The notes under the pieces are model-generated. The model was not told the DNA's origin and did not search any database. It saw only the letters and a program-made list of their open reading frames with translations. Shown here in pieces: positions 959 to 12,301 of a stretch of DNA of 12,301 nt. Made by a program: the position numbers and the translations under genes. The number at the start of each line of letters is the position of its first letter. Position 1 is the first letter of the stretch. Source of the stretch: Boseongicola sp. SB0675_bin_26 (GTDB taxonomy: Bacteria; Pseudomonadota; Alphaproteobacteria; Rhodobacterales; Rhodobacteraceae); contig VYCX01000020.1 in assembly GCA_009843725.1 (NCBI GenBank), positions 2,108 through 14,408 on the forward strand, given 5' to 3'.

Positions 959-1835
959 ATTCGACGCGATAAATTCGCGCTGCGGTGTCGTTGAAGATTT
1001 GCAGTTTCTGCTTCTTGGTGAGATTCACTGTCGCTTTCCTGAATGCGCCGATGAGATCCCGATAGTTCGTCCAGAGCTTCTCAATCGGAAAGTTCGATCC
1101 GAACATGCAGCGGTCAGCCCCGAAGATCGAGACGGTCTCCTTTACAACGTCGGCAATGAAGTCCGGGTCGTTCCGGTGAATGAACGTTCCGAACGCCGAA
1201 AGCTTCGTGACCACGTTCCTTCGCTTTGCGAGGTCCGTCATGGCTGCGCGCCAGGCCTTCCAGCCAGCCTGGGATTGATCTTCCAGCATGCCGGCATGCT
1301 GCAGGATGAACGTCACGTCCGGGCACCCATCAGCGAGTTCCGCGGCGTCTGCCATCTGGCCAGGAAACACCTGAAGGTCGAAGGTGAATCCGTGCTCCGC
1401 GAGTTTTCCGATGTTCTCGACAACACGGGGATCCGAGACCTGCCTGCGATCGGGGGCGAACCGATATTGCGGATTTTCGTGCCAGTGAAACTGCTGCCGA
1501 AAGCCTCTCAGCAAGGAATGGCCCTTGAGCGACTTCAACGTGGGAGCGACATCGCCCTTCGTGAAATCCAGAAAGCCGACAATTGCATGGGGCCAGCCTT
1601 TCCTGCCCGCAACGGACTGAACCCAGGCGATCTCGTCCTTGAACCAGTTCGGCGCCCAGTTGGCCTGAACATAGACCGACTTCTTGATCCCGGCACCCTT
1701 GATGTCGGCGCAATACTCTTCGACCGGGTAGTCCCTCTTGATCGCTGAATAAGGACCGAAGATCCTCGGTCGCTCGGGCCCGAGCAGCCATGGCAGGTCA
1801 CTTTGCCGCCAGATATGGTGGTGAGCGTCTATCAT
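957..1835 (-). CDS. COG3618/Amidohydro_2-type TIM-barrel hydrolase (lactonase-like)
   Basis: A 292-residue TIM-barrel hydrolase of the amidohydrolase superfamily, COG3618 branch, which includes lactonases such as fuconolactonase, sulfomuconolactonase and pyrone-dicarboxylate lactonase (LigI). Visible marks are the N-terminal D3-x-H5-x-H7 motif, LRGFRQQFHW (109-118) at the GxR strand, D153 in TFDLQV, H180 in ILQHAGM, K211 in VVTKLSAF, and MFGSNFP (244-250), where many members have Asp in place of N248. It overlaps the CoxE-like gene by 4 bp (ATGA), with an AGGGAAG-type site upstream. It probably opens a lactone or cleaves a ring product of the Mo hydroxylase; the substrate cannot be read from sequence. 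Confidence 0.88.
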   Translation of the reverse strand: MIDAHHHIWRQSDLPWLLGPERPRIFGPYSAIKRDYPVEEYCADIKGAGIKKSVYVQANWAPNWFKDEIAWVQSVAGRKGWPHAIVGFLDFTKGDVAPTLKSLKGHSLLRGFRQQFHWHENPQYRFAPDRRQVSDPRVVENIGKLAEHGFTFDLQVFPGQMADAAELADGCPDVTFILQHAGMLEDQSQAGWKAWRAAMTDLAKRRNVVTKLSAFGTFIHRNDPDFIADVVKETVSIFGADRCMFGSNFPIEKLWTNYRDLIGAFRKATVNLTKKQKLQIFNDTAARIYRVE

Positions 1836-2959
1836 GCGGCGCTTCCCTGACGGGCTTGGGATGCCAGGCCCAGAAGATGGTCCGCAACCGCTTCGCTTGT
1901 TGATCCGTCGGCCAATGCATCAAGGCTCGGCACTATCGCACTCAGACCGCCGGTTGCAGGCACGTAGTCCGGATCCGACCCCAGCGGCGTCAGCCAATCC
2001 ACGCGCCAAGCCAGCTTTGAAAGCCGGCGAACCGCTTCAAGCATCAGCGTTGGCGACCCGCGTTCCAGGCCGTCGGACAAGACGACAATCGCCGCGCCAC
2101 GAGCAAAGCCGGCATAGCGTGGCACTGCAAGGAAGGCAGTCAGCGCCTCGCCGATCCGCGTGCCGCCATCAACGTCGGCAACAAGCGCGGAGGCGCGCTC
2201 CAACGCCCTTGCCCGATTGCGTACGCGCAATGCAGGTGTCAGTCGCGTCAACCGGGTGCCAAGCGTAAAGACCTCTGCGCGGTCAGCCGCGTCGGTCAAC
2301 ACGTGCGCGAAAGTCATTGCAGCCTCTGTTCGGTCTTTCATCGAGCCAGAAACGTCAATCAGCAGCACGATCTTGCGCTGGCGATTCTTGCGGCGACGTC
2401 GTGCAAGGGTGAAGACCTCGCCGTCCCGTCTTGCAGCGTCGCGCAGGGTCCGACGCATATCCAGCAGCTTGCCGCCCCGATCAGGTGCAAAGCGGTATGA
2501 CAGCCGACGCGGCAGTCGGGCGGACGCGAGGCGCTGAAAGCGTGCCAAGGCCGAACCTGGGTCTTCCTCCGTGAATTCGCGGCGTGACAGTCGCTCAATG
2601 GCCGTGGCCTCTCGGCCGGTCTCGGCATCAGGATCAACCGCATCCCGCTCTTCGCTGGCTCCGGTCGGCTCGTGGGCCGAAACCGTCTGGTCTTCGACTT
2701 CAACTGCGCCGGGCGCGGTCATCCCCAAGAAGTAGGCGCGGAAGAGCGCGTCAAATTCGTCCTGCCGGTCCCTGGGAATCGCCAGCATGGCGATCCCCGC
2801 GCGGCGAACATCCTCGACGTTCCGCGGCCCCAGCAGCTCGATTGCCTCAAGAAACCCGATGGTCTGATCGGGGCCAACGGAAAAGCCGTGGATGCGCAGG
2901 ACAGCGGGAAAGCGGACGAACGGCTCGGCTGCGCGGGGAAGCGGGCGTGGATCCGTCAT
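1832..2959 (-). CDS. VWA-domain protein (CoxE-like)
   Basis: A 375-residue VWA protein of the CoxE family. The C-terminal von Willebrand A domain has an intact MIDAS metal site: D202-x-S204-x-S206 in LLIDVSGSM, T267 in GGTRIG and D296 in VVLSDGLERG. The N-terminal ~190 residues hold an acidic, low-conservation stretch (about 85-125) and a basic RRRRKNRQRK patch just before the VWA core. CoxE acts with CoxD in assembling the CO dehydrogenase active site; the same pairing here implies a maturation role for the Mo hydroxylase. The ATG at 2959 was chosen because it gives the ATGA overlap with the MoxR gene and a GGAGA-type site precedes it; the upstream extension in the same frame is inside the MoxR gene. 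Confidence 0.9.
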   Translation of the reverse strand: MTDPRPLPRAAEPFVRFPAVLRIHGFSVGPDQTIGFLEAIELLGPRNVEDVRRAGIAMLAIPRDRQDEFDALFRAYFLGMTAPGAVEVEDQTVSAHEPTGASEERDAVDPDAETGREATAIERLSRREFTEEDPGSALARFQRLASARLPRRLSYRFAPDRGGKLLDMRRTLRDAARRDGEVFTLARRRRKNRQRKIVLLIDVSGSMKDRTEAAMTFAHVLTDAADRAEVFTLGTRLTRLTPALRVRNRARALERASALVADVDGGTRIGEALTAFLAVPRYAGFARGAAIVVLSDGLERGSPTLMLEAVRRLSKLAWRVDWLTPLGSDPDYVPATGGLSAIVPSLDALADGSTSEAVADHLLGLASQARQGSAA

Positions 2960-3837
2960 GCCGCTTCTCCAGGCAGGAACGCGTCCAGTCGCGGAGATAG
3001 TTGTGCAAGGTCGTCCTGGTCTTTCAGCACAACCCCAATCGAGCGCCGGAAGGCTGCTGGCCAAGGCTCTCCTTGTGCATTCAACAGCGTCGCGGCCTCC
3101 GCCCACTCGACGGTCTCGGCAACGCCAGGCAGCTTGACCAGCGGTTCTTCCCGCATAAGCCCCACCGAAGCGACCACAGCCTCCGCTGTCGCTTCGGCAA
3201 CCGACGACGCTCGCACCATCACGATTCGGGCTTCAAGTGCAGGATCAGGGAAGTCGATCCAATGATAGACACAGCGTCGCCTGAGGGCCTCGTGAAGATC
3301 GCGGGTGCGGTTCGAGGTCAGAACCACAACCGGGTGAGATGCCGCGCGAACGGTGCCGGTCTCGGGTATCGATATGGTGAAGTCCGACAGGAATTCGAGC
3401 AGGAACGCCTCGAACTCGTGGTCGGAACGGTCGATTTCGTCAATCAGCAAGAGGGATTCATCCGGCGCCAGCAGCGCTTCCAGCAAGGGGCGCGCCAGCA
3501 GGAATTCATCCGTGTAAACGTTGAGCTGGCTGTTCTCGGCCTGGCGAATTGCCAGCATTTGGCGCGGATAATTCCATTCATAGAGCGCCGCCGCGGCGTC
3601 GATTCCCTCGTAGCATTGCAAGCGGATCACGTTCCGGCCCAGCACAGCGCCAATCGCCTTGGCGGCCTCGGTCTTGCCGACGCCCGGAACGCCTTCCAGA
3701 AGAAGCGGCTTGCCGAGCGCCAGCGCGAGATAGGCCGAGGTCGACAGCGCGTCATCGGCGAGGTACTGCGCCGCCGTCAAGGCGCCTTGCAGCGCTCCGG
3801 GGCTGTCGATTCCGCGTATGTCCGCCCGTACCGGCAT
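2956..3837 (-). CDS. MoxR-family AAA+ ATPase (CoxD-like)
   Basis: A 293-residue AAA+ ATPase of the MoxR group. Walker A is GVPGVGKT (49-56), Walker B LLLIDEID (129-136), sensor-1 N176 in VVLTSNRTRDL, and arginines at 186-188 (LRRRC) fit the arginine-finger region. CoxD of Oligotropha carboxidovorans belongs to this group and is needed to introduce sulfur into the Mo-Cu site. Such ATPases typically work with a VWA-domain partner, here the next gene, as a chaperone-like pair. I chose the ATG at 3837 because MPVRADIRGI begins where the family begins and it forms TGATG with the previous stop; the longer open frame upstream lies in the Mo-subunit gene. A role in maturing the Mo enzyme is inferred from family and context. 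Confidence 0.92.
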   Translation of the reverse strand: MPVRADIRGIDSPGALQGALTAAQYLADDALSTSAYLALALGKPLLLEGVPGVGKTEAAKAIGAVLGRNVIRLQCYEGIDAAAALYEWNYPRQMLAIRQAENSQLNVYTDEFLLARPLLEALLAPDESLLLIDEIDRSDHEFEAFLLEFLSDFTISIPETGTVRAASHPVVVLTSNRTRDLHEALRRRCVYHWIDFPDPALEARIVMVRASSVAEATAEAVVASVGLMREEPLVKLPGVAETVEWAEAATLLNAQGEPWPAAFRRSIGVVLKDQDDLAQLSPRLDAFLPGEAA

Positions 3838-4865
3838 CAGGCGCCTGGCCTGCCTTGGGGACGTGCGCCGCCGTTCGCGCGAATGCCACGCAACACCTTT
3901 TCCGGGGTGATCGGAAGGCTGTCGCATTCCACGCCGACCGCGTTGAACACGGCATTGGCGATGGCAGGCAACACTGGATTGGCGCACATCTCGCCCGGCC
4001 CCTTGCCGCCGAAGGGCGCATCCGGGGCCGGACGCTCGAGAACCGAGATATGGTGAGGCACAGCATCACCCGGCCCCGGCTGAAGATAGTGATTGAAATC
4101 GACGGGGCCATGCGACCGGTCCGGATAATTGGGCTCTGTCGTTTCGTACAGCGCGTGGCTCACGCCCATCCAGGCGCCCCCGATCAATTGCTGTTCCACC
4201 AGTCGGGGATTGAGCGCACGTCCAACCTCGTAAGCAGAGTTGATGTGCTGGACCTCGACCTCTCCGGTTTCGTCATCCACAGTCAAGTCTATGATCAATG
4301 CGGCGTGGGCGAAGGATGACACCGGAGTCATTTCGCCGGTGTCGCTGTCGACCTCGGACAACGGGACAAGGAACATTCCGCGTCCCGCAAGCGTGCGGCC
4401 TTGACCGAACTGCGCGGCCGTTGCCGTCGCCTCGACCGTAGTTGACCGGCTGGGCGCACCCTTTACATGGATGTTCCCGCGCCCGTCAGTCACAAGGTCA
4501 GACGCGTCGACCTCAAGCTCCTCCGCCGCAGCTTCCAATAGCTGGGCGCGGGCCTCCGTGGCTGCACGGATGATCGCGTTGCCCATTCTATGCGTTCCGC
4601 GCGATGCGAACGAACCCATGTCGTGGGGACCGGTGTCGCTGTCCGCAGTGTCAACAAAGACATCCTCAACCGGCACGCCGAGCGTCTCAGCAGCCAATTG
4701 GCGACCCACCGACTTGATGCCTTGCCCAAGATCGATGGAAGAGAGCGTGACCTTGAATTTTCCGTCAGGCGTCGAATGAACCAGCGCCTGGCTGGGGTCG
4801 CCGCCAAGGTTCATGCCGATGGGGTAGTTGATGCAGGCAAAGCCGCGTCCATGATGAATGGCCAT
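3837..4865 (-). CDS. Molybdopterin-binding subunit, C-terminal half
   Basis: The 342-residue second Mo-cofactor domain of the large subunit, as a separate gene. It begins MAIHHGRGFACINYPIGMNL, normally internal sequence in CoxL/XDH-type subunits. GQG at 47-49 and the QLAAETLGVP helix bind the cofactor. The SFASRGTHRMGNA segment (85-97) is the usual GSRxTxxxG region. GKGPGE (287-292) carries E292, the expected catalytic glutamate, followed by NPVLPAIANAVFNAVG. With the N-terminal half minus its tail, the total is about 790 residues, the normal size of an undivided subunit, so nothing essential seems lost. Eubacterium barkeri nicotinate dehydrogenase is a known precedent for a Mo subunit split in two (NdhL/NdhM). 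The stop overlaps the MoxR start (TGATG). Confidence 0.92.
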   Translation of the reverse strand: MAIHHGRGFACINYPIGMNLGGDPSQALVHSTPDGKFKVTLSSIDLGQGIKSVGRQLAAETLGVPVEDVFVDTADSDTGPHDMGSFASRGTHRMGNAIIRAATEARAQLLEAAAEELEVDASDLVTDGRGNIHVKGAPSRSTTVEATATAAQFGQGRTLAGRGMFLVPLSEVDSDTGEMTPVSSFAHAALIIDLTVDDETGEVEVQHINSAYEVGRALNPRLVEQQLIGGAWMGVSHALYETTEPNYPDRSHGPVDFNHYLQPGPGDAVPHHISVLERPAPDAPFGGKGPGEMCANPVLPAIANAVFNAVGVECDSLPITPEKVLRGIRANGGARPQGRPGA

Positions 4866-6781
4866 CAGCGCCTCCTCGACCCGGAGATGAACCGCGAGAC
4901 GCCTGGCCGCCTCACACCGCGCTGGAAGTGCGTCGTGGCGCTTTCACTTTCGGCCTCGGCGGCGGCCGGTGGCGTTGCCGGCTGTTGCGCCGCTGGCGTG
5001 CCCGGCGCCTGTGCCGTTGGCTGCGCATTCGGTTGCGTGAACGTGCTCGCCGGACGCTGAGTGTAGGCTGCAGGCAGGGAAGGACCGCCACTGGCACCTG
5101 GGGAACGCGTTGGATGCCTTGGCTCTCCTGGGACGATTGGCAGCGCGCTGGATGCCGTTTCATCCACGGGTCCCTGTGGCGTCGCCGGAGCGCCCTTGAA
5201 CCCAAGTCGCTCGATCTCTGCCTCCATGTCATCCCGTTGAGGTGCAATGCCGAGGGCTGAACTGTTGTTGGAGGAATGGCCTTCCGGAAGCAGTCCGCGA
5301 GTCCCCTGCCCCGAGAACGGCTCCGGCGCGAGCCCGGAGCGCCTTCGCTCGCCTATCCTGCCCTCGTCGTCAGTGACCGTCTCGGGGATCACACCCAACG
5401 CAGCCTCGCCGCCGCCGACCTTGCTTGAAGCTCGCACCGCGTCGGCGGACAGGCTCCAGCCCGTCTTCTGAGCGACCGCCTGGCAGCTTTCGATCAAGGC
5501 GCAGTTCTTCGCCTCGCGCCGATGCGCCTTCATGTCGCCATCGCGGTACGCGTTCAGGATTCGCAGCTCGATCGGGTCCTTGCCGACAGCGCGTGCAACC
5601 CTGTCCATGTGACGTTCGATCGCGAAATCCACGGCGGTAATACCGAAGCCGCGCATAGCCGTTGAAGGGGTCCGATTGGTGAAGACGCAGTAGACATTGG
5701 ATGCGACGTTCGGAATCGAATAGGGACCGGGCAAATGGCCCGTCGCCTTCTGAACGGCATAGGAAGACAGCCGCGTGTAGGCGCCAGCGTCAAAGAACCC
5801 AGTAAAGGCACGCGCGATGATGCGGCCGTCGCGCATCACCCCGTCCTTGATCCGCCACCGTTCGCCTCCGCGCGGACCGCCGATCTGCATCTCTTCGGCG
5901 CGGTCCCACATGTATTTCACGGGTTTGCCGGTGGCCAGGCAGGCGAGCGCAGCCAAGGGTTCATGATGGCTGTCCACCTTGCCGCCGAATCCGCCGCCGA
6001 CGGTGCCGCCGATGAAGTGCAGACGCGCCGAGCTGATGGCGAGCTGCTTCGCCGTGACCCCAACCGAGAAGAAGAGCGCTTGGGTCGATGTATGAACGGT
6101 GATCCGGTCATTGGTTTCCGGAGCCGCGATGGCACCACAGGTCTCGATGGGCGCCTGCTCGATCGGCGACATCTGGTATTCGCCCTCGACGATGTGATCG
6201 GCCCTTGAGAATGCGGTCTCGACGTCCCCGAACCGCAGTTTCTGGTGATCATAGATGTCAAAGTAGTCGAAGGTGTTGTTGGGATACTCGTCGTTGACGA
6301 TCGGCGCCTCGGGTTTCAGCGCCTCTTCCACGTCCAGTACATGGGGCAGTTCCTCGTAGTCCACCTTGACGGCATCAACCGCTTCCTGGGCTGCGCGAAC
6401 CGATGTCGCAACGACTGCAAGGATCGGCTGACCGACATAGCCGACCTTGTCGGTCGCCAGAAGAGGTTCATCGTCCCGGCCGAAATTGATCAGCGACAGA
6501 AGCGTGTTGGTGTTCACGGGCACGTCGCGGCCGCCAAGTACATGAACAACGCCGTCCTGCTGCTCGGCGGCCGAGGAATCGACCGATCGGATGCGCGCGT
6601 GGTGGTGGGGTGAGCGCACGCAACGCATGTGCAGGAGTCCATCGAAGACATGGTCGTCATAGAATTTCGACCGCCCGGTTACATGACCCAGGATGTCCTG
6701 CCTGATGACCGGCTTGCCGACGACATCGAGGTCGTCGGAACGCTCGTCGGCAAAAAGGTCCTTGCGATACTCGACTGGCAT
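4865..6781 (-). CDS. Molybdopterin-binding subunit, N-terminal half, with long disordered tail
   Basis: N-terminal portion of a CoxL/XDH-type large subunit, 638 residues from the ATG at 6781. The GTG three bases upstream, overlapping the previous stop, is an alternative. The a/b hammerhead domain spans about 20-150. The first Mo-cofactor domain follows with HTSTQALFFS, GGGFGGK (about 262-268), and AMRGFG (about 375-380) where the family has the AxRGFG active-site loop. Homology appears to stop near residue 450. The remaining ~190 residues are low-complexity, rich in Pro, Ala, Gln, Ser and Gly, and end in a basic segment. The second Mo-cofactor domain is missing here and is encoded by the next gene, which overlaps by one base (TGATG). 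A CO-dehydrogenase-type CSFR loop is absent, so the substrate is not CO in the classical sense. Family is certain; the split and tail are unusual. Confidence 0.9.
   Translation of the reverse strand: MPVEYRKDLFADERSDDLDVVGKPVIRQDILGHVTGRSKFYDDHVFDGLLHMRCVRSPHHHARIRSVDSSAAEQQDGVVHVLGGRDVPVNTNTLLSLINFGRDDEPLLATDKVGYVGQPILAVVATSVRAAQEAVDAVKVDYEELPHVLDVEEALKPEAPIVNDEYPNNTFDYFDIYDHQKLRFGDVETAFSRADHIVEGEYQMSPIEQAPIETCGAIAAPETNDRITVHTSTQALFFSVGVTAKQLAISSARLHFIGGTVGGGFGGKVDSHHEPLAALACLATGKPVKYMWDRAEEMQIGGPRGGERWRIKDGVMRDGRIIARAFTGFFDAGAYTRLSSYAVQKATGHLPGPYSIPNVASNVYCVFTNRTPSTAMRGFGITAVDFAIERHMDRVARAVGKDPIELRILNAYRDGDMKAHRREAKNCALIESCQAVAQKTGWSLSADAVRASSKVGGGEAALGVIPETVTDDEGRIGERRRSGLAPEPFSGQGTRGLLPEGHSSNNSSALGIAPQRDDMEAEIERLGFKGAPATPQGPVDETASSALPIVPGEPRHPTRSPGASGGPSLPAAYTQRPASTFTQPNAQPTAQAPGTPAAQQPATPPAAAEAESESATTHFQRGVRRPGVSRFISGSRRR
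4868..5434 (-). other. Low-complexity Pro/Ala/Gln-rich tail at the split of the molybdopterin subunit
   Basis: Coding segment for about the last 190 residues of the N-terminal half. It contains runs such as QPNAQPTAQAPGTPAAQQPA and ends in a basic stretch, RRPGVSRFISGSRRR. A short charged patch (DDMEAEIERLGFKG) is the only part that looks helical. No family match was recognised. The other minus-strand frames here give Arg-rich or otherwise implausible protein, so this frame appears to be the used one. It lies where an intact large subunit would run straight on into the second Mo-cofactor domain. Confidence 0.75.
4871..4877 (-). promoter_or_regulatory. Ribosome binding site for the C-terminal half of the molybdopterin subunit
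   Basis: GAGGAGG on the minus strand, 5 nt before the ATG at 4865. It is encoded within the final Ser-Arg-Arg codons of the upstream half. A well-placed site at the break argues that the two halves are separately translated genes and not one gene broken by a sequencing error. Confidence 0.75.
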
Positions 6782-7254
6782 CACGCGGCACCCCGCTGCC
6801 TGGCGGCTTCAAGTATTGCGTCAATGATCGGCTCATAACCCGTGCAGCGGCAAAGATTGCCTGAGATGGCTTCTTCGACCTCCGAGCGAGTCGGGCTTGG
6901 GTTTCGGTCAAGGAGCGCCTTGGCTGCCATCAGCATGCCCGGCGTGCAGTACCCGCACTGCGCAGCAAAGCCTTCAATGAAGGCTCTTTGCAGCGGGTGC
7001 AGCTCCGGCCCGTTTGACAGCCCGCCGGTTGTCTCAATTGACCGACCGGCGACGGTCTCGGCCAGGACCAGACAGGACACGTGCGGCTCTCCGTCGATGA
7101 GGACCGTGCAGGCACCGCAGCTGCCCTGTCCGCAACCGTACTTGGGCGACAGGTCTCCGCATTCGCGACGAAGCACGTCAAGAAGATTGGCACCTGGGTC
7201 GACGAAGACCGCCGTCTCGGATCCGTTTAGCCTGAAAGCGACAGGGGATTTCAC
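6781..7254 (-). CDS. Molybdenum hydroxylase 2Fe-2S subunit (CoxS/CutS-like)
   Basis: Small subunit with two [2Fe-2S] clusters, 157 residues, normal length for the family. The N-terminal plant-ferredoxin-type cluster uses C41, C46, C49 and C61 (YGCGQGSCGACTV...SC). The C-terminal helical-domain cluster uses C100, C103, C135 and C137 (QCGYCTPGM...NLCRCTGYEPI). It shuttles electrons from the Mo centre to FAD. The start is GTG at 7254, inside the end of the FAD-subunit gene; no nearby ATG fits, and a strong GGAGGA site precedes it. No Tat signal is seen, so the enzyme is probably cytoplasmic. The stop forms TGATG with the next start. Confidence 0.95.
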   Translation of the reverse strand: MKSPVAFRLNGSETAVFVDPGANLLDVLRRECGDLSPKYGCGQGSCGACTVLIDGEPHVSCLVLAETVAGRSIETTGGLSNGPELHPLQRAFIEGFAAQCGYCTPGMLMAAKALLDRNPSPTRSEVEEAISGNLCRCTGYEPIIDAILEAARQRGAA

Positions 7255-8042
7255 CGTGCGTCCTCCCCAAGCAAAAGACGACGAAGATGAACCGGCGCCA
7301 CCTCGCGGCGATACCAGCCAGAGGCGATCGGATCGTCCTGTACCGCCAGCCCCTCGGTCGCGGCAGACAGCGCGGCGGTGATGCCTGCGTGATCAAGGCT
7401 GACCCCTTCAAGCGCGTTTTCGACCGCCCGGACCCGCACTGGTGTTGGCGCCATTGCGCCATAGGCAATGCGGACGCCTGACAGTCGGCCCGCTCTTCGG
7501 GCGAGGTGCGCGGCCATCGACATCACCGAAACGCCTTTGGGCTTGACCCGGGACACCTTTCTGAACCGAAATTCATCACCCCGCGGGCGACGGACCAGCA
7601 GCGACCGAACGACGCCGCTCCGGCTGGCCAGAAATTCCTCAAGGCTCAATTCCTCTCCATTGGCCATCCGAACGATGGCGTCCAAGGCGAGCAACGCAAC
7701 CGCCAAGTCACCATAGGGATGCGGCGCCATCAGGTTCCCGCCCACGCTCGCCATGTTGCGGATTGCGGGCCCGCCCACGGCGCGGGCAGCCGGGGACAGG
7801 AAGTCCAGATCCCGCGAAGCCAGGATTCCAGCCATCGTGACGCCTGCCCCGACCTCCAGGCGATCGCCTTCAACCCGAATTTCGGATAGCGATGCATCCG
7901 TTGTACGCACGATGCGATTGAACCGCCGGTCACCATAGTTGACACGGTTCATGATCAAGGTCCCGCCGCCCAGAAACCGGGCATGATCGTCCATTGCGCC
8001 AGCGGCTTCGCCAACGGTCGGGTACGTCTGGACTTCAAGCAT
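7251..8042 (-). CDS. Molybdenum hydroxylase FAD-binding subunit (CoxM/CutM-like)
   Basis: Medium subunit of a xanthine-dehydrogenase-family molybdenum hydroxylase, 263 residues. It carries FAD, which takes electrons from the 2Fe-2S subunit and passes them to an acceptor. FAD-binding motifs are FLGGGTLI at 23-30 (the AGGxSL-type loop) and IRNMASVGGNL at 94-104 (canonical IRNxGTxGGNL), then YGDLAVAL. The C-terminal CO-dehydrogenase flavoprotein domain spans about 155-260. I chose the ATG at 8042 over upstream in-frame starts because MLEVQTYPTVGEA matches where the family begins; the upstream extension lies inside the SRPBCC gene and looks non-native. It overlaps the SRPBCC gene by 8 bp and the next gene by 4 bp (GTGA). 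Confidence 0.92.
   Translation of the reverse strand: MLEVQTYPTVGEAAGAMDDHARFLGGGTLIMNRVNYGDRRFNRIVRTTDASLSEIRVEGDRLEVGAGVTMAGILASRDLDFLSPAARAVGGPAIRNMASVGGNLMAPHPYGDLAVALLALDAIVRMANGEELSLEEFLASRSGVVRSLLVRRPRGDEFRFRKVSRVKPKGVSVMSMAAHLARRAGRLSGVRIAYGAMAPTPVRVRAVENALEGVSLDHAGITAALSAATEGLAVQDDPIASGWYRREVAPVHLRRLLLGEDAR
7261..7266 (-). promoter_or_regulatory. Ribosome binding site deciding the GTG start of the 2Fe-2S subunit
   Basis: GGAGGA on the minus strand, 6 nt before the GTG at 7254 and inside the FAD-subunit coding sequence. It supports the GTG over any downstream start. Confidence 0.7.
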
Positions 8043-8481
8043 GACCCATTCCCATGTGGGTCCGAATGGCCTCGAACCCCGCGGCGTAGATGCCGTCGCC
8101 AACCAGCTCAGACAGCTCGCTTGCACGCCCCGCAGGCGTGTCAAAGCGGCTTTCCCATTCCCAATAGGTTCGGTCCCCGTCCGTCACCGGGAGCAGGCGG
8201 ACGTGGGCGACGTAGTTGAAGAGCGGAACAGGCGTGTCGAGCAGGCAGTAGCTGAAGGTCTGCTCCAAGTCCGAAAGCGTCAGGAGCTGTTCACGCAGAT
8301 TGGCGCCACTCTCAAGACGGAAGTTCCTTACGCAGCCAACCATGTCCGACGGATATCCGCGCTCAATATGGCTTTCGGCGACCGCCGGATGCCATTGATC
8401 ATGGCCATTGAAGTCGCGAATGACCGCCCAGACCGCCTCCGCCGGCGCGTCAAGTACGGTGCTCTTCTTGACGTGCGGCAT
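8035..8481 (-). CDS. SRPBCC (START/Bet v 1-like) family protein B
   Basis: A 148-residue SRPBCC protein, second of the tandem pair. It shares with protein A the WHP motif (about 30-32), VGCxRNFxL..G.N.REQLL.LSD (about 48-71), the PVT.GDRT.xEW strand and a C-terminal helix, so the pair arose by gene duplication. It is soluble by sequence, with no membrane helix. The ATG overlaps the stop of protein A by one base (TGATG), and its own stop overlaps the FAD-subunit start by 8 bp. Two divergent copies could form a heterodimer or bind two ligands, for example substrate and product or quinone; this is inference. Confidence 0.88.
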   Translation of the reverse strand: MPHVKKSTVLDAPAEAVWAVIRDFNGHDQWHPAVAESHIERGYPSDMVGCVRNFRLESGANLREQLLTLSDLEQTFSYCLLDTPVPLFNYVAHVRLLPVTDGDRTYWEWESRFDTPAGRASELSELVGDGIYAAGFEAIRTHMGMGHA

Positions 8482-8921
8482 CAGCCACCCCCGAACTGGC
8501 GCTTGAGCGCGTCAAATCCGGCCTGGAAAACGTCCGTGCCAATCAAGGATACCAGCTCGTCTTCGTCGCCCGGGTCACATGAAAACTCCGCTGTCCATTC
8601 GATGAAGGTCCGGTCGCCCTCGGTGACGGGAGTCAGCCTGAGCGTTGCGACATAGTCTTCGAGCGGCATCGGACTTTCGAGGATCGAGTAGGTCACGAAC
8701 ATGTCGTAGTCTGACAGGCCCAACAACTGTTCACGGATGTTGTCGCCGTTTTGCAGATTGAAGTTCCGAATGCACCCGACCTTGTCGGCCGGAAGCGCCT
8801 CTTCGATCCGGCTTTCGCGTATCATGGGATGCCATCGCGGGAGGTCATTGAATCCGCGGATGCGATCCCACACGCGATCCGGCGGAGCGGAGATGACGGA
8901 GGAAGCGTAGACCCGGGCCAT
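8481..8921 (-). CDS. SRPBCC (START/Bet v 1-like) family protein A
   Basis: A 146-residue single-domain SRPBCC protein (polyketide cyclase/dehydrase-like helix-grip fold), which normally forms a deep hydrophobic ligand pocket. Visible marks are an N-terminal strand (ARVYASSVISAPPDRVWDRI), FNDLPRWHP at about 24-32, VGCIRNFNLQNGDNIREQLL at about 48-67, and a C-terminal amphipathic helix. No signal peptide or membrane helix is seen. It is a clear paralogue of the next gene, about 47% identical by hand alignment. CO dehydrogenase clusters carry an SRPBCC gene, coxG, which has a C-terminal membrane segment; this protein occupies a similar context but lacks one. The ATG lies 1 bp after the flotillin stop, implying translational coupling. 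The ligand is unknown. Confidence 0.88.
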   Translation of the reverse strand: MARVYASSVISAPPDRVWDRIRGFNDLPRWHPMIRESRIEEALPADKVGCIRNFNLQNGDNIREQLLGLSDYDMFVTYSILESPMPLEDYVATLRLTPVTEGDRTFIEWTAEFSCDPGDEDELVSLIGTDVFQAGFDALKRQFGGG

Positions 8922-8922
8922 C

Positions 8923-11850
8923 TCAGGATTTCGCCTCCCCGTCCTTCTTCTTCTCCTCCTCCGCCTCGGCCCTCGCCGCGGCCCTGACTTTCTGGCTCTC
9001 GCTCATGGCACGCGCCATGTTGCTGGCGTCCTGGAAGATCGCCGATCTCGCCAAGTTTGAGCCGTCAATGCCGATGTCGTTCATCAGGCTGTCGATCATC
9101 GGCCCCTGAACCCGGTACCGAAGCGCGGAATTTATGACCTCGTCGGTCGGGCTTGCAGCACCACCTCCACCGCCGCCGCCGGAACCGCCGTCTGCCCAGT
9201 TGAGGCCGGTTGTGCCACCACCGCCAAGCTGCATGATCTTGATCTCGTCGATCTTCTCAAGCGGTTTGACCTGCGCTGCAATGATGCCTTCGAGCCGCTC
9301 CAGCATGTTGCGCTTGAAGAGCGATGCCCGGGCTTCGTCGGTAAGGATGTTCTCGGCCTCGTTGATAAGCCGCTGGGCCTCTGCGCGAACTGCCGAGACA
9401 ACTTCTTCCGCATGCGCGGCGAGCTTGGCGCGTTCGGCCTCCTTTTCGGCGGCGGCAACGCCAACCTGCTTGTCTCGCGATGCCTCCTCGAGCGCGGCAG
9501 CCGTATCGACCTTGGCCGCGGCTTCGGCGGCGCGGGCACGTGCCGCATCGGCCTCGATTGCCGCGGCGCTTTCGTCGAGCGACTTGCCATAAAGTGCAAT
9601 CGCCTTCTCCATCGCCGCTTCCTCGACCGCCTTTTCGCGCTCGATCTCCAATTGGCGGCGCTTCTTCTGATGCGCAATGCGCGCGTCATCAAGCTCGTCC
9701 TCGGATTGAATCTGCACGCGTTCGACAACTTCTTTCGCGGCGATCTCGGCTTCGCGCAGCGCCTTTGTCCGTTCAACTTCGAGGTGCTCCAGCGCTTTGC
9801 GGCGCTCGATGTTTGCGGCCTCAATGGCGCGTTCCTTCTCGATCTCGGCGGCGCGGGTCTTGGCCTCTTCCTCAATGCGGGCCGCATTGATCGTTTCCTG
9901 AGCGGCGATGTTCGCCTCGTCGACCGCGCGGTTGCGGGCAATTTCCCGTTCCCGCATGTCCTGTTCATAAGCAATGCGCTCGGCAGCGAGCTTCTTTTCC
10001 TTGGCAATTCGGGCTGCTTCGACCGCCTCGGCTCTTGACTGTTCGCGCACCTCCGTGTCTTCGCTGGCCTCAATCCGCTCGAATGCGACCAGCCTCTCCT
10101 GAGCAATGCGGGCCTTTTCGACGGCCTCGCGCGACTCGATCTCGGACTCTTCGAGCATCTTGTTGCGCTCGATCTCCAAGCTCCGGGTCTCGCGCTCCGA
10201 GGCGATGCGCTCCGCCGCGACCTTCTTCTCTTGCGCGATGCGCGCGGCCTCGACCGCTTCCGCCTTCAGGAGATCTCGTTCTTCGGTCTTTTCATCCGCC
10301 TCTATGCGTTCGAATGCCAGGAGGCGCTCTTGCGCAATACGGGCCTTCTCGACGGCCTCACGTGCATCGATCTCGGCCTGGTCGATTGCACGATTGCGCT
10401 CGATTTCTAGGCTGCGGGTCTCCCTGTCAGAGGATATGCGGGCCGACGCCACGGCCTTTTCCTGCATGATCCGCAGCTTTTCCGTCGCCTCGCGTTGAGC
10501 GATTTCGGCTTCGCTGATGGCCAGGTCGCGGGCAACCTCGCGCTCGCGCGTGGTCTGTTCATACTCGATCCGGGCCTCGGTCACGGCCTTTTCCTGCGCG
10601 ATGCGGGCGCGCTCCACGTTTTCGCGTGCTGTGATGCCTTCCGCATCGATGGCCTGCTGGCGCTCGATCTCCTTTGACTGGGTTTCGCGCTCTTTCGCGA
10701 TGCGCGCCTCTTCCAGGGCCTTTTCCTGGGCGATGCGGGCCGTTTCGATCGCCTCACGCGCCGCGATTTCCGCAGCGTCGGTCTGCCGTCGTGTCTTGAT
10801 CCGTTCCTCGGTCAGCGACCTTTCCTGCGCGATCCGCGCCCTTTCAACGGCTTCACGGGTCGAGATGTCAGCTTCGTCAACCACTTTCTGCGACTCGATC
10901 TCGCGTTGCCTGACTTCTCGTTCGGACGCGATGCGCGCCTCGGAAATCTGGCGCTCGTTTTCGATCCGGGCAGTTTCAATGGCTTCGCGCGACAGAAGCG
11001 TCGCCTGTTCGGCATCCTTTTCCCGCTCGGAACGTTCCCGTGCCAGTTCTGCACGTTGCTGCGCGCGGCGGAATTCAACTTCCCGCTCCTGGTCAAGACG
11101 GGCTTCTTCGGACTCGCGCTCGATGTCCAGCGCCTGTTTCTCAGCCTCGAGATTGCGCGCGCGAATCTTGATCATCGCGTCCTGCTCGATGTCGTTGCGC
11201 AGCTTCCGGCGCTGCTCGACGGCCTCAATGACGGCTGTCAAGCCTTCTGCGTCGAACTTGTTGGACGGGTTGAAATACTGAATGTCCGTCTGGTCGATGT
11301 CCGTCGCCGCAACGCTTTCCAGCTCCAGCCCGTTCTTGTCGAGCCCTTCCTGCGCCATTTCCTTGACGCGGGCGACGTACTCGTTGCGATTCTCATGTAC
11401 CTCCTCAAGCGTCATCTGCGACGCGACGGTGCGCAGCGCGGATATGAATTTGCCAGACAAGAGCGAGTGGATGCGCTCGGGTTCCAGTGTCCGCCGGCCA
11501 AGGGTCGAGGCAGCAAGCGAAACCGCCTCCTTGGTCTGGTTCACCCGAACGTAGAATTCCGCGTCCACGTCTATGCGCATCCGGTCGCGCGTGATCAGCG
11601 CCTCGTCCTTCTCACGGGTCACCGCAAGTTGCAGGGAATTCATGCTTACCGGCGTGATGTCGTGAATGATCGGCCAGACGAATGCGCCGCCGTTGATGAC
11701 AACCTTCTCGCCAAGAAAACCCGTGCGCACGAATGCGACTTCCTTGGTTGAGCGGCGGTAAAGCCAGTACATCACCCAGTAGACGACAAAGATGACGATG
11801 ACGGCCGCGATGAGCCACAGGATCAGTTGTCCTAACAGTTCGCCAGTCAT
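8923..11850 (-). CDS. Giant flotillin-like SPFH protein with extended hendecad coiled coil
   Basis: Membrane scaffold protein of the flotillin/SPFH family, 975 residues, about twice the ~500 residues usual for bacterial flotillins (YuaG/FloT, YqiK). An N-terminal hydrophobic helix at about residues 7-31 anchors it. An SPFH domain follows (about 35-200; GGAFVWPIIHDITPVSMNSLQL and DVDAEFYVRV are typical). A charged coiled coil then runs from about 212 to 750 in units that are multiples of 11 residues. Next come an Ala-rich helix (about 755-875) ending in the flotillin-type KPLEKIDEIKIMQL, a Gly-rich hinge (876-900), a conserved-looking segment (901-935) and a highly charged tail. Flotillins organise membrane microdomains and oligomerise into cages. 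The ATG at 11850 has a strong ribosome binding site. The stop is 1 bp from the next gene. Family call is firm; the length and its role in this operon are the unusual points. Confidence 0.93.
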   Translation of the reverse strand: MTGELLGQLILWLIAAVIVIFVVYWVMYWLYRRSTKEVAFVRTGFLGEKVVINGGAFVWPIIHDITPVSMNSLQLAVTREKDEALITRDRMRIDVDAEFYVRVNQTKEAVSLAASTLGRRTLEPERIHSLLSGKFISALRTVASQMTLEEVHENRNEYVARVKEMAQEGLDKNGLELESVAATDIDQTDIQYFNPSNKFDAEGLTAVIEAVEQRRKLRNDIEQDAMIKIRARNLEAEKQALDIERESEEARLDQEREVEFRRAQQRAELARERSEREKDAEQATLLSREAIETARIENERQISEARIASEREVRQREIESQKVVDEADISTREAVERARIAQERSLTEERIKTRRQTDAAEIAAREAIETARIAQEKALEEARIAKERETQSKEIERQQAIDAEGITARENVERARIAQEKAVTEARIEYEQTTREREVARDLAISEAEIAQREATEKLRIMQEKAVASARISSDRETRSLEIERNRAIDQAEIDAREAVEKARIAQERLLAFERIEADEKTEERDLLKAEAVEAARIAQEKKVAAERIASERETRSLEIERNKMLEESEIESREAVEKARIAQERLVAFERIEASEDTEVREQSRAEAVEAARIAKEKKLAAERIAYEQDMREREIARNRAVDEANIAAQETINAARIEEEAKTRAAEIEKERAIEAANIERRKALEHLEVERTKALREAEIAAKEVVERVQIQSEDELDDARIAHQKKRRQLEIEREKAVEEAAMEKAIALYGKSLDESAAAIEADAARARAAEAAAKVDTAAALEEASRDKQVGVAAAEKEAERAKLAAHAEEVVSAVRAEAQRLINEAENILTDEARASLFKRNMLERLEGIIAAQVKPLEKIDEIKIMQLGGGGTTGLNWADGGSGGGGGGGAASPTDEVINSALRYRVQGPMIDSLMNDIGIDGSNLARSAIFQDASNMARAMSESQKVRAAARAEAEEEKKKDGEAKS
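9898..10128 (-). repeat. 231-bp in-frame tandem repeat, copy 2 (flotillin residues 575-651)
   Basis: Second copy of the 77-residue unit, beginning EAVEKARIAQERLVAFERIE. By hand alignment about 51 of 77 residues match copy 1, with the closest match in the first half. This suggests a duplication of a two-block unit within the coiled coil, followed by divergence. Confidence 0.8.
10129..10359 (-). repeat. 231-bp in-frame tandem repeat, copy 1 (flotillin residues 498-574)
   Basis: First copy of a 77-residue unit (a 33- plus a 44-residue block) beginning EAVEKARIAQERLLAFERIE. It is followed directly by a second copy with the same internal layout. The shared DNA stretch around GAATGC recurs exactly 231 bp apart (10312 and 10081). 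Confidence 0.8.
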
Positions 11851-11869: not shown

Positions 11870-12301
11870 TTAGAGGTCGATCTCCTTGAATTTCTTCGTC
11901 TGTTCCGTCAGCGCGACTTCCGTCGGCAGGCGCTCCATCGACGAGGCACCATAAAAGCCGTGACAATTCCTGGTGTTCTTCAGGACGAATGCCGCGTCCT
12001 CCGGCATCGCCACCGGCCCGCCGTGAACCAGCACGAGGGCGTCGGGATTCACCTCAAGCGCCGCAGCGGCCCATTCATCCGTCAAGCCGGGGGCATCGGC
12101 CAGCGCCACTCCCGTCTCCGCCCCGATTGAGCCTCCGGCCGTCAGTCCCAGGTGCACGACAATGATGTCGGCGCCCGCAGCCGCCATGTCGCGCGCATCA
12201 TCTGCCGAGAACACGTAAGGTGTCGTCAGCATGTCGCGATCAGCGGCCATGCGGATCATCTCGACTTCGTGGCCGATCCCCATACCGGTCTCCTCCAGAT
12301 T
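11870..12301 (-). CDS. Tm-1-like / PEP-hydrolase-family TIM-barrel protein (3' part)
   Basis: This is the C-terminal ~143 residues of a TIM-barrel protein; the 5' end lies outside the window. The frame stays open to the window edge and reads N-L-E-E-T-G-M-G before the first internal Met, so the Met at 12283 is not the true start. The segment LEETGMGIGHEVEMI, followed by AAGADIIVVHLGLT.GGSIGA and LVHGGP, matches my recollection of the PEP_hydrolase/Tm-1 C-terminal domain family. In tomato Tm-1 this domain is fused to a UPF0261 domain; in bacteria the two are often separate neighbouring genes. The biochemical role in bacteria is poorly defined, and 'PEP hydrolase' is mainly a family name. It ends in TAA, 19 bp before the flotillin start, so it is probably co-transcribed with it. 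Family assignment is fairly sure; function is not. Confidence 0.78.
   Translation of the reverse strand, partial: NLEETGMGIGHEVEMIRMAADRDMLTTPYVFSADDARDMAAAGADIIVVHLGLTAGGSIGAETGVALADAPGLTDEWAAAALEVNPDALVLVHGGPVAMPEDAAFVLKNTRNCHGFYGASSMERLPTEVALTEQTKKFKEIDL

Follow-up and report, generated by a model that had tools for sequence, protein, structure and literature searches.

Flotillin-type SPFH proteins of exceptional size have been known since 2009, when Hinderhofer et al. described 'giant SPFH2' (SPFH2b) proteins of 800-1000 amino acids (PMC2636767). Human flotillin builds a single-layer right-handed barrel whose wall spans 186 residues; in the comparison by Fu and MacKinnon, SPFH walls measure between 44 and 189 residues (PMC11260169). 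Here we examine a stretch of 12,301 nucleotides (the window) from Boseongicola sp. SB0675_bin_26 (GCA_009843725.1, contig VYCX01000020.1, positions 2,108 to 14,408), in which a gene on the minus strand (8923..11850) encodes a flotillin of 975 amino acids. Its wall segment contains an unbroken array of 46 hendecads, that is, repeats of 11 residues. Across flotillins of both ordinary and giant size, the length of this segment changes almost only in steps of 11 residues.

The window protein resembles the giant SPFH2 proteins in its flotillin type, its strongly expanded coiled-coil region and its length, which falls within their range. Giant size is thus an established property; hendecads, a length rule and an operon of the kind described below were not found for flotillins in the literature searched, with subscription papers mostly outside that search. 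The accessible parts of PMC2636767 make no mention of hendecads, of length steps of 11 residues or of an operon with ABC transporter, SRPBCC and molybdenum enzyme genes. With the human flotillin-1/2 cage (9BQ2, PMC11260169; 9L3G) the protein shares an SPFH domain, a long wall helix and a C-terminal part. That cage has been shown with 44 subunits (PMC11260169). The human wall of 186 residues compares with 612 residues between landmarks in the window protein, lengths that were measured differently; with the same reservation, the longest SPFH wall in the published comparison (189 residues, PMC11260169) would be about a third as long as one of 612 residues. Ordinary bacterial flotillins (FloT/YqiK type) carry the same landmarks, hendecad phase and length classes, and their walls measure 194-252 residues. 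The initial annotation was right that this segment is far longer than in ordinary flotillins. Another parallel is found in the arms of prokaryotic SMC proteins, where coiled-coil length is also under periodic constraint; there the steps are of about 100 residues with a 3.5-residue (heptad) component, whereas the step here is 11 (PMC5344682).

The open reading frame begins with an ATG at 11850, preceded by a GGGAGG motif. A hydrophobic helix at the N-terminus (residues 3-35; 11746..11844, minus strand, as are all features of this gene), which is apparent in the sequence and also modelled as a helix over residues 3-35 by AlphaFold2 (AF2), is followed by the SPFH/Band_7 domain (residues 37-195; 11266..11742; PF01145, 65.8 bits against a cut-off of 23.6). 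The Flot C-terminal domain occupies residues 800-928 (9067..9453; PF15975, 112.8 bits against a cut-off of 27). The FloT equivalog model NF058507 gives only 45 bits against its cut-off of 700, and a sequence search of the PDB at E 0.001 returned no relative.

The hendecad array is the most regular part of the protein. The initial annotation had proposed an unbroken array of 42 hendecads over residues 289-750, which correspond correctly to bases 9601-10986 of the open reading frame; the array proves to be longer, with 46 consecutive hendecads over residues 245-750 (9601..11118). Fourier analysis of large hydrophobic residues over residues 289-750 gave power of 59 at a period of 5.5 residues, 53 at 2.75 and 31 at 2.2, which are harmonics 2, 4 and 5 of 11. 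None of 500 shuffles produced a peak above 13.9; the dominance of the 11-residue period that the annotation had predicted is clear. At periods of 7, 3.5 and 3.6 residues the power was 0.1-0.6, and the heptad dominance that the annotation had named as its refutation did not occur; a heptad or mixed period is ruled out, with power of 0.5-0.6 at 7 and 3.5. Also ruled out is a higher-order period of 22, 33 or 44 residues (power at most 1.5). The annotation's division into blocks of those sizes carries no further information, as length steps of single hendecads are common in relatives. Numbering each block from 0, Ile fills position 7 in 37 of 42 blocks, position 2 carries Val, Thr, Ile or Leu in 40 of the 42, and at positions 1 and 5 Ala is more frequent than any other residue.

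The register of the array can be predicted from relatives. We built a profile from 31 giant flotillins of the same length class (defined below) but other wall lengths, excluding the window's genus and anchoring at the C-terminal landmark alone. The register so predicted was the best of the 11 in 46/46 hendecads and in 43/43 windows of 33 residues; for the hendecads at 267 and 597 the score is marginally negative, yet even there the predicted register is best. Upstream of about residue 245 the register is lost, shifting by a total of 4 around residues 240-247 (11110..11133), and residues 212-288 alone give no 11-residue peak in the hydrophobics by Fourier analysis. The annotation had extended the 11-residue period through the 77 residues preceding its array; this is correct for about 44 of them, from about residue 245, and not for those before. 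Proline is absent from residues 201-832, which contain four glycines, one of them in the array, and the 68,642 wall residues of 107 giants include a single proline and 547 glycines.

We defined wall length as the distance from an N-terminal landmark, RNDIEQ (residues 218-223; 11182..11199), to a C-terminal landmark, NEAEN (residues 830-834; 9349..9363), both located by profiles. A third landmark, KAIALYGKS (residues 749-757; 9580..9606), marks the end of the array, and the NEAEN landmark asparagine is present in 215/215 different measured rows. The sequences measured include most long flotillins, together with those ordinary ones that were obtained as loci and a few more; some genomes are represented by two loci. 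Among 245 candidates with an N-terminal score above 100 bits, 240 had both landmark blocks. The remaining five are a fragment of the window's own gene (L009) and four long SPFH proteins (L099, L153, L154 and L155; open frames of 858-956 amino acids) that have a flotillin-like N-terminal part and lack the C-terminal block.

Wall length equals 7 or 10 modulo 11 in 237 of the 240 flotillins, ordinary and giant, which take 36 different lengths over a range of 194-824 residues. Counting only different wall sequences with all landmarks (215, spanning 37 lengths from 194 to 824), 138 leave a remainder of 7, 76 a remainder of 10 and one a remainder of 3. When moduli from 5 to 15 were compared for the distance between RNDIEQ and KAIAL, the top two remainders for modulus 11 covered 35 of 36 distinct lengths (6.5 expected), and the runner-up, modulus 5, covered 22 of 36 (14.4 expected). 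A measure based on regular expressions (regex) alone, which missed 82 of the 245 rows, placed 140 of 148 different rows and 33 of 41 distinct lengths in two remainder classes, with a chance of about 4e-16 if remainders are uniform and lengths independent. We take five of its eight exceptions to be mis-hits of the regex, since the profiles show four of them to follow the rule and one to be missing a block; the other three we take as true exceptions. Six plasmid records were fetched after the rule had been formed, and the four measurable flotillins among them are all 7 modulo 11; two were not measurable. Outside the phylum the comparison covered only flotillin-like proteins of Hymenobacter and Deinococcus, both of which lack the C-terminal block and so yield no wall length. 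These plasmid-encoded proteins (L276, L277) have about 722 and 652 amino acids, and the Hymenobacter gene adjoins genes for PspA, DUF1449 and a 'DNA repair ATPase'.

Register was compared within the two length classes as well. In giants of the 7-modulo-11 class the register scan detected no break inside the array. In those of the 10-modulo-11 class a 3-residue shift, located 185-203 residues before NEAEN, gave the best fit in 73/73 rows (duplicates kept, in a scan that permitted one break only). The main hendecad phases relative to NEAEN are the same in 99 ordinary, 16 middle-length and 107 giant rows; some giant phases are blurred because the giant pool mixes both classes. The initial annotation had named frequent register breaks in homologues as evidence against its array: the scan showed none inside the array of the 7-modulo-11 giants, whereas several occur, with the window's own profile, in the middle-length relatives considered below.

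The giants form one clade. In a FastTree phylogeny of 222 rows, calculated with the wall excluded, they lie on one side of a branch with support of 99, and at least 62 length changes on the tree need only 8 changes of remainder class. All seven other genomes of the genus that were searched encode the protein, six of them in open frames of 992-995 amino acids and the seventh cut by a contig end. The nearest named matches are Silicimonas- and Boseongicola-like Rhodobacteraceae with 97-98% identity; giants also occur among Bosea, Bradyrhizobium, Roseibium, Hoeflea and Roseomonas and in one Granulosicoccaceae metagenome bin, all of these names coming from the 80 best-ranking among at least 565 confirmed places. 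The largest giants have about 1170 amino acids (L228). In overlapping genome samples, the Flot domain was detected in 108/390 genomes at the level of the order, 61/385 at the level of the class and 51/398 at the level of the phylum.

The giant flotillin gene is part of a conserved operon, whose genes in the window, as far as the CoxE-like gene, lie on the minus strand. Upstream, 19 bases from the flotillin start, is a gene for a PEP_hydrolase-like TIM-barrel protein (11870..12301; PF09370) that runs off the window. Downstream, after a gap of 1 base, follow two SRPBCC proteins (8481..8921 and 8035..8481; both PF10604) and the subunits of a molybdenum hydroxylase: an FAD subunit whose start codon is uncertain (7251..8144; PF00941, PF03450), a 2Fe-2S subunit (6781..7254; PF01799, PF00111), and the N-terminal half (4865..6784) and C-terminal half (3837..4865) of the large subunit, matched below cut-off by the first and second halves of NCBIfam xanthine dehydrogenase-family profiles, respectively. 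A MoxR/CoxD-like AAA ATPase (2956..3987; NF047784 MadB family, below cut-off) and a CoxE-like VWA protein (1832..3106; PF05762) come next. The division of the large subunit into two genes (3837-6784) recurs in relatives, the halves being on separate open reading frames in 84/84 loci that hold both. At the end of the cluster (97-1835) there are genes for a lactonase-like metallo-beta-lactamase and an amidohydrolase.

Of 130 loci with walls of more than 300 residues, 127 have the SRPBCC cluster downstream of the flotillin and 115 have the PEP_hydrolase-like cluster upstream of it. A fuller locus (L247) has the order: two Liv-type permeases, LivG ATPase, an ATPase-UPF0261 fusion, PEP_hydrolase-like protein, flotillin, SRPBCC, FAD subunit, 2Fe-2S subunit, two molybdopterin-binding subunits and MoxR-like ATPase. 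Two SRPBCC genes are present in the window and in several loci, and in the window the CoxE-like VWA gene comes next. The fusion in L247 (2916-5135) is an ABC transporter ATPase that carries both UPF0261 domains. The SPFH2 operons of PMC2636767 have NfeD, a partner that is usual rather than universal (17 genomes had SPFH2 without one in 2009). Here NfeD is not an immediate neighbour, the adjoining genes being those for the PEP_hydrolase-like and SRPBCC proteins in the window and in relatives; no search aimed at NfeD was made.

Wall length matches the enzyme encoded in the operon. The loci compared, each with its wall measured, number 147; all are at least 9 kb long except L278, which is shorter. 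Among the 112 loci of at least 9 kb whose walls are at least 535 residues long, SRPBCC is present in 112, LivG in 110, the PEP_hydrolase-like protein in 109, UPF0261 in 109 and a molybdenum subunit in 108; the dehydrogenase part of the SRPBCC-alcohol dehydrogenase fusion is found in none (0/112). In operon members with walls of 227-384 residues, an alcohol dehydrogenase match is present in 14/14, one of which (L141) also matched one molybdenum half. Two more short-wall operon members (L029 and L132, the latter the same gene as L141) are on short loci outside this test. The SRPBCC fusions to zinc alcohol dehydrogenase are seen in operons of middle-length flotillins (L148:683-3012, identified by Pfam, and L080:8408-9883), and an FAA hydrolase is nearby in 7 of 16 loci with walls of 300-420 residues. 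Ordinary flotillins differ from the giants in that nearly all lack SRPBCC and PEP_hydrolase-like neighbours in the stretch examined; in Variovorax paradoxus the order PEP_hydrolase-like protein, flotillin, SRPBCC surrounds a flotillin of ordinary size.

The closest described parallel for the enzyme genes is the cox cluster of molybdenum CO dehydrogenase (PMC4240915), which has FAD, 2Fe-2S and molybdenum subunits, a MoxR-like ATPase, a CoxE-like VWA protein and adjoining small proteins. The window operon differs in its split large subunit, its PF10604 SRPBCC proteins and the addition of a flotillin and a Liv-type ABC transporter. A role in bringing CO dehydrogenase to the membrane has been proposed for CoxG (PMC4240915), and an archaeal dehydrogenase is anchored by CoxG-like proteins (PMC11962113).

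How might such an array be built into a structure? On a helix of 3.67 residues per turn, about 131 degrees separate the two positions of large hydrophobics (phases 0 and 6 from NEAEN), an alanine stripe lies at about 98-164 degrees, and charges fall between and around the stripes. Hydrophobic power in the window protein is only 4-5 at 3.67 residues, compared with 53-59 at 2.75 and 5.5. Two separate hydrophobic stripes suit a helix with two neighbours, and therefore a single-layer wall, better than a two-stranded rod. The pattern favours a wall over a stalk as read from the sequence, and does not settle the choice between cage and stalk. A helix of 612 residues, rising 0.15 nm with each, would be about 92 nm long, and tilt would make a cage lower than that. 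AF2 models of a single chain placed helices at residues 201-356, 372-567 and 604-832 with a 40-row alignment (mean pLDDT, the model's own confidence score, 63.8), and at 201-325, 330-514, 524-593, 600-783 and 798-835 with six near-identical rows (mean pLDDT 58.8). We rejected these models as proof of one continuous helix, given their low confidence and shifting gaps; they neither prove nor refute it. The best fold matches of the 40-row model in the PDB are flotillin complexes and the mouse flotillin-2 SPFH domain, followed by prohibitin, vault protein and stomatin.

On balance, and with somewhat better than even confidence, we interpret the window protein as a giant SPFH2 flotillin that forms a membrane-standing SPFH cage, its wall about three times the normal length, and scaffolds the transport-oxidation module of its operon. 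The wall would be a single helical layer built of hendecads, each providing three helical turns and repeating the two large-hydrophobic stripes and the alanine stripe, and the stripes would pack against two neighbouring subunits. Adding or removing 11 residues would then alter wall length without rotating the C-terminal cap against the wall, and we infer that this preserved orientation is why natural wall lengths change almost only in 11-residue steps. At the inner membrane, the cage would probably keep together the Liv-type ABC transporter, the SRPBCC proteins and the molybdenum hydroxylase. By analogy with CoxG, it may be the SRPBCC proteins that draw the hydroxylase to the membrane, either within the cage or next to it.

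Alternatively, only the SPFH ends may form a ring at the membrane, with the array projecting into the cytoplasm as a two- to four-stranded coiled-coil stalk. Hendecad coiled coils are able to form long rods, and human flotillin lacks the hydrophobic pattern seen here. Counter to this, a two-stranded coil needs one hydrophobic face where the window protein has two stripes, the distance to a landmark within the Flot domain follows the same length rule, and ordinary flotillins, whose human relatives form single-layer walls (PMC11260169), share the register. We therefore regard a stalk as unlikely. Still less plausible, to the point of being highly improbable, is a single non-packing charged helix (SAH/ER-K type) acting as a stiff spacer. 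In favour of such a spacer, the segment is rich in Glu, Arg and Ala and free of proline, but helices of this type are charged and have no hydrophobic stripes, whereas the array has its Ile and Val/Thr/Ile/Leu positions in nearly every block. These stripes, common to giants outside the genus, point to packing.

The length rule itself could be a mutational by-product, in which unequal recombination of 33-base units adds and removes whole units with no selection on register. Length change is frequent, with the many events counted on the tree, and the array contains an internal duplication of 77 residues (seven hendecads; copy 1, residues 476-552, 10195..10425; copy 2, residues 553-629, 9964..10194) whose copies are 75% identical in amino acids and 69% in nucleotides. 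On the other hand, Tandem Repeats Finder detected no tandem DNA array in the window, and the rule holds as well for ordinary walls of 194-249 residues, whose hendecads are fewer and weaker. In five rows of the alignment (L072, L079, L080, L097 and L098), the extra sequence inserted between KAIAL and NEAEN likewise totals 22, 33 or 44 residues. This explanation seems to us rather unlikely, although not negligibly so. Conceivably, too, the flotillin only shares a transcript with the operon enzymes, without being functionally tied to them. Few independent switches lie behind the correlation of wall and enzyme, and one giant operon (L077, with its near-copy L076) has two SRPBCC genes and no molybdenum subunit in the stretch examined; the two further giants that lack molybdenum genes are on short loci. 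In L077 the SRPBCC genes are followed, as judged by eye, by lactonase-like and aldehyde dehydrogenase-like genes, the former resembling the lactonase-like gene of the window. Set against an accidental association are the near-constant presence of the SRPBCC, PEP_hydrolase-like, UPF0261 and LivG genes with walls of at least 535 residues and the gaps of only 19 and 1 bases to the flotillin's two neighbours in the window. We consider the absence of any tie improbable.

Several observations weigh against our preferred interpretation of a scaffolding cage with an 11-residue length rule. Human FLOT1 shows no 5.5/2.75 pattern in its hydrophobics, so that it was rejected as a bearer of the window's pattern and the solved cage is an imperfect template; its hydrophobic peak is at 2.23 residues, near 11/5, as is its alanine peak at 2.2. 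Three of the 240 measured flotillins break the length rule (L151 and L152, 3 modulo 11; L029, 0 modulo 11). The last of these has a wall of 198 residues and SRPBCC and PEP_hydrolase-like neighbours. Four middle-length flotillins (L072, L079, L080 and L097) fit the window's own profile poorly, with several interior breaks. The 11-residue steps could partly reflect duplication of repeat blocks. The AF2 helices are interrupted at 357-371 and 568-603 in the first model and at 326-329, 515-523, 594-599 and 784-797 in the second; these gaps mostly move with the alignment, except near residues 594-600, the site of the array's weakest hendecad. No CoxG family match was reported for the SRPBCC proteins, which match PF10604. 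Finally, few evolutionary switches underlie the match of wall length and enzyme, and as the giants are one clade there may have been only a single one.

A broader proposal, which we offer as speculative and unlikely as it stands, is that bacterial flotillin walls are 11-residue rulers, with cage height set by threes of helical turns and tuned to the enzyme housed, the tallest class, with about 80-120 nm of helix, forming a membrane-standing compartment around a transporter-coupled molybdenum hydroxylase. The operon provides a natural series in which the same partners accompany walls of 227, 348, 384 and 535-824 residues and two different enzymes. If the length rule holds, the size of an SPFH cage would be readable from sequence and could be changed by design in known steps, and what flotillin cages enclose would become testable.

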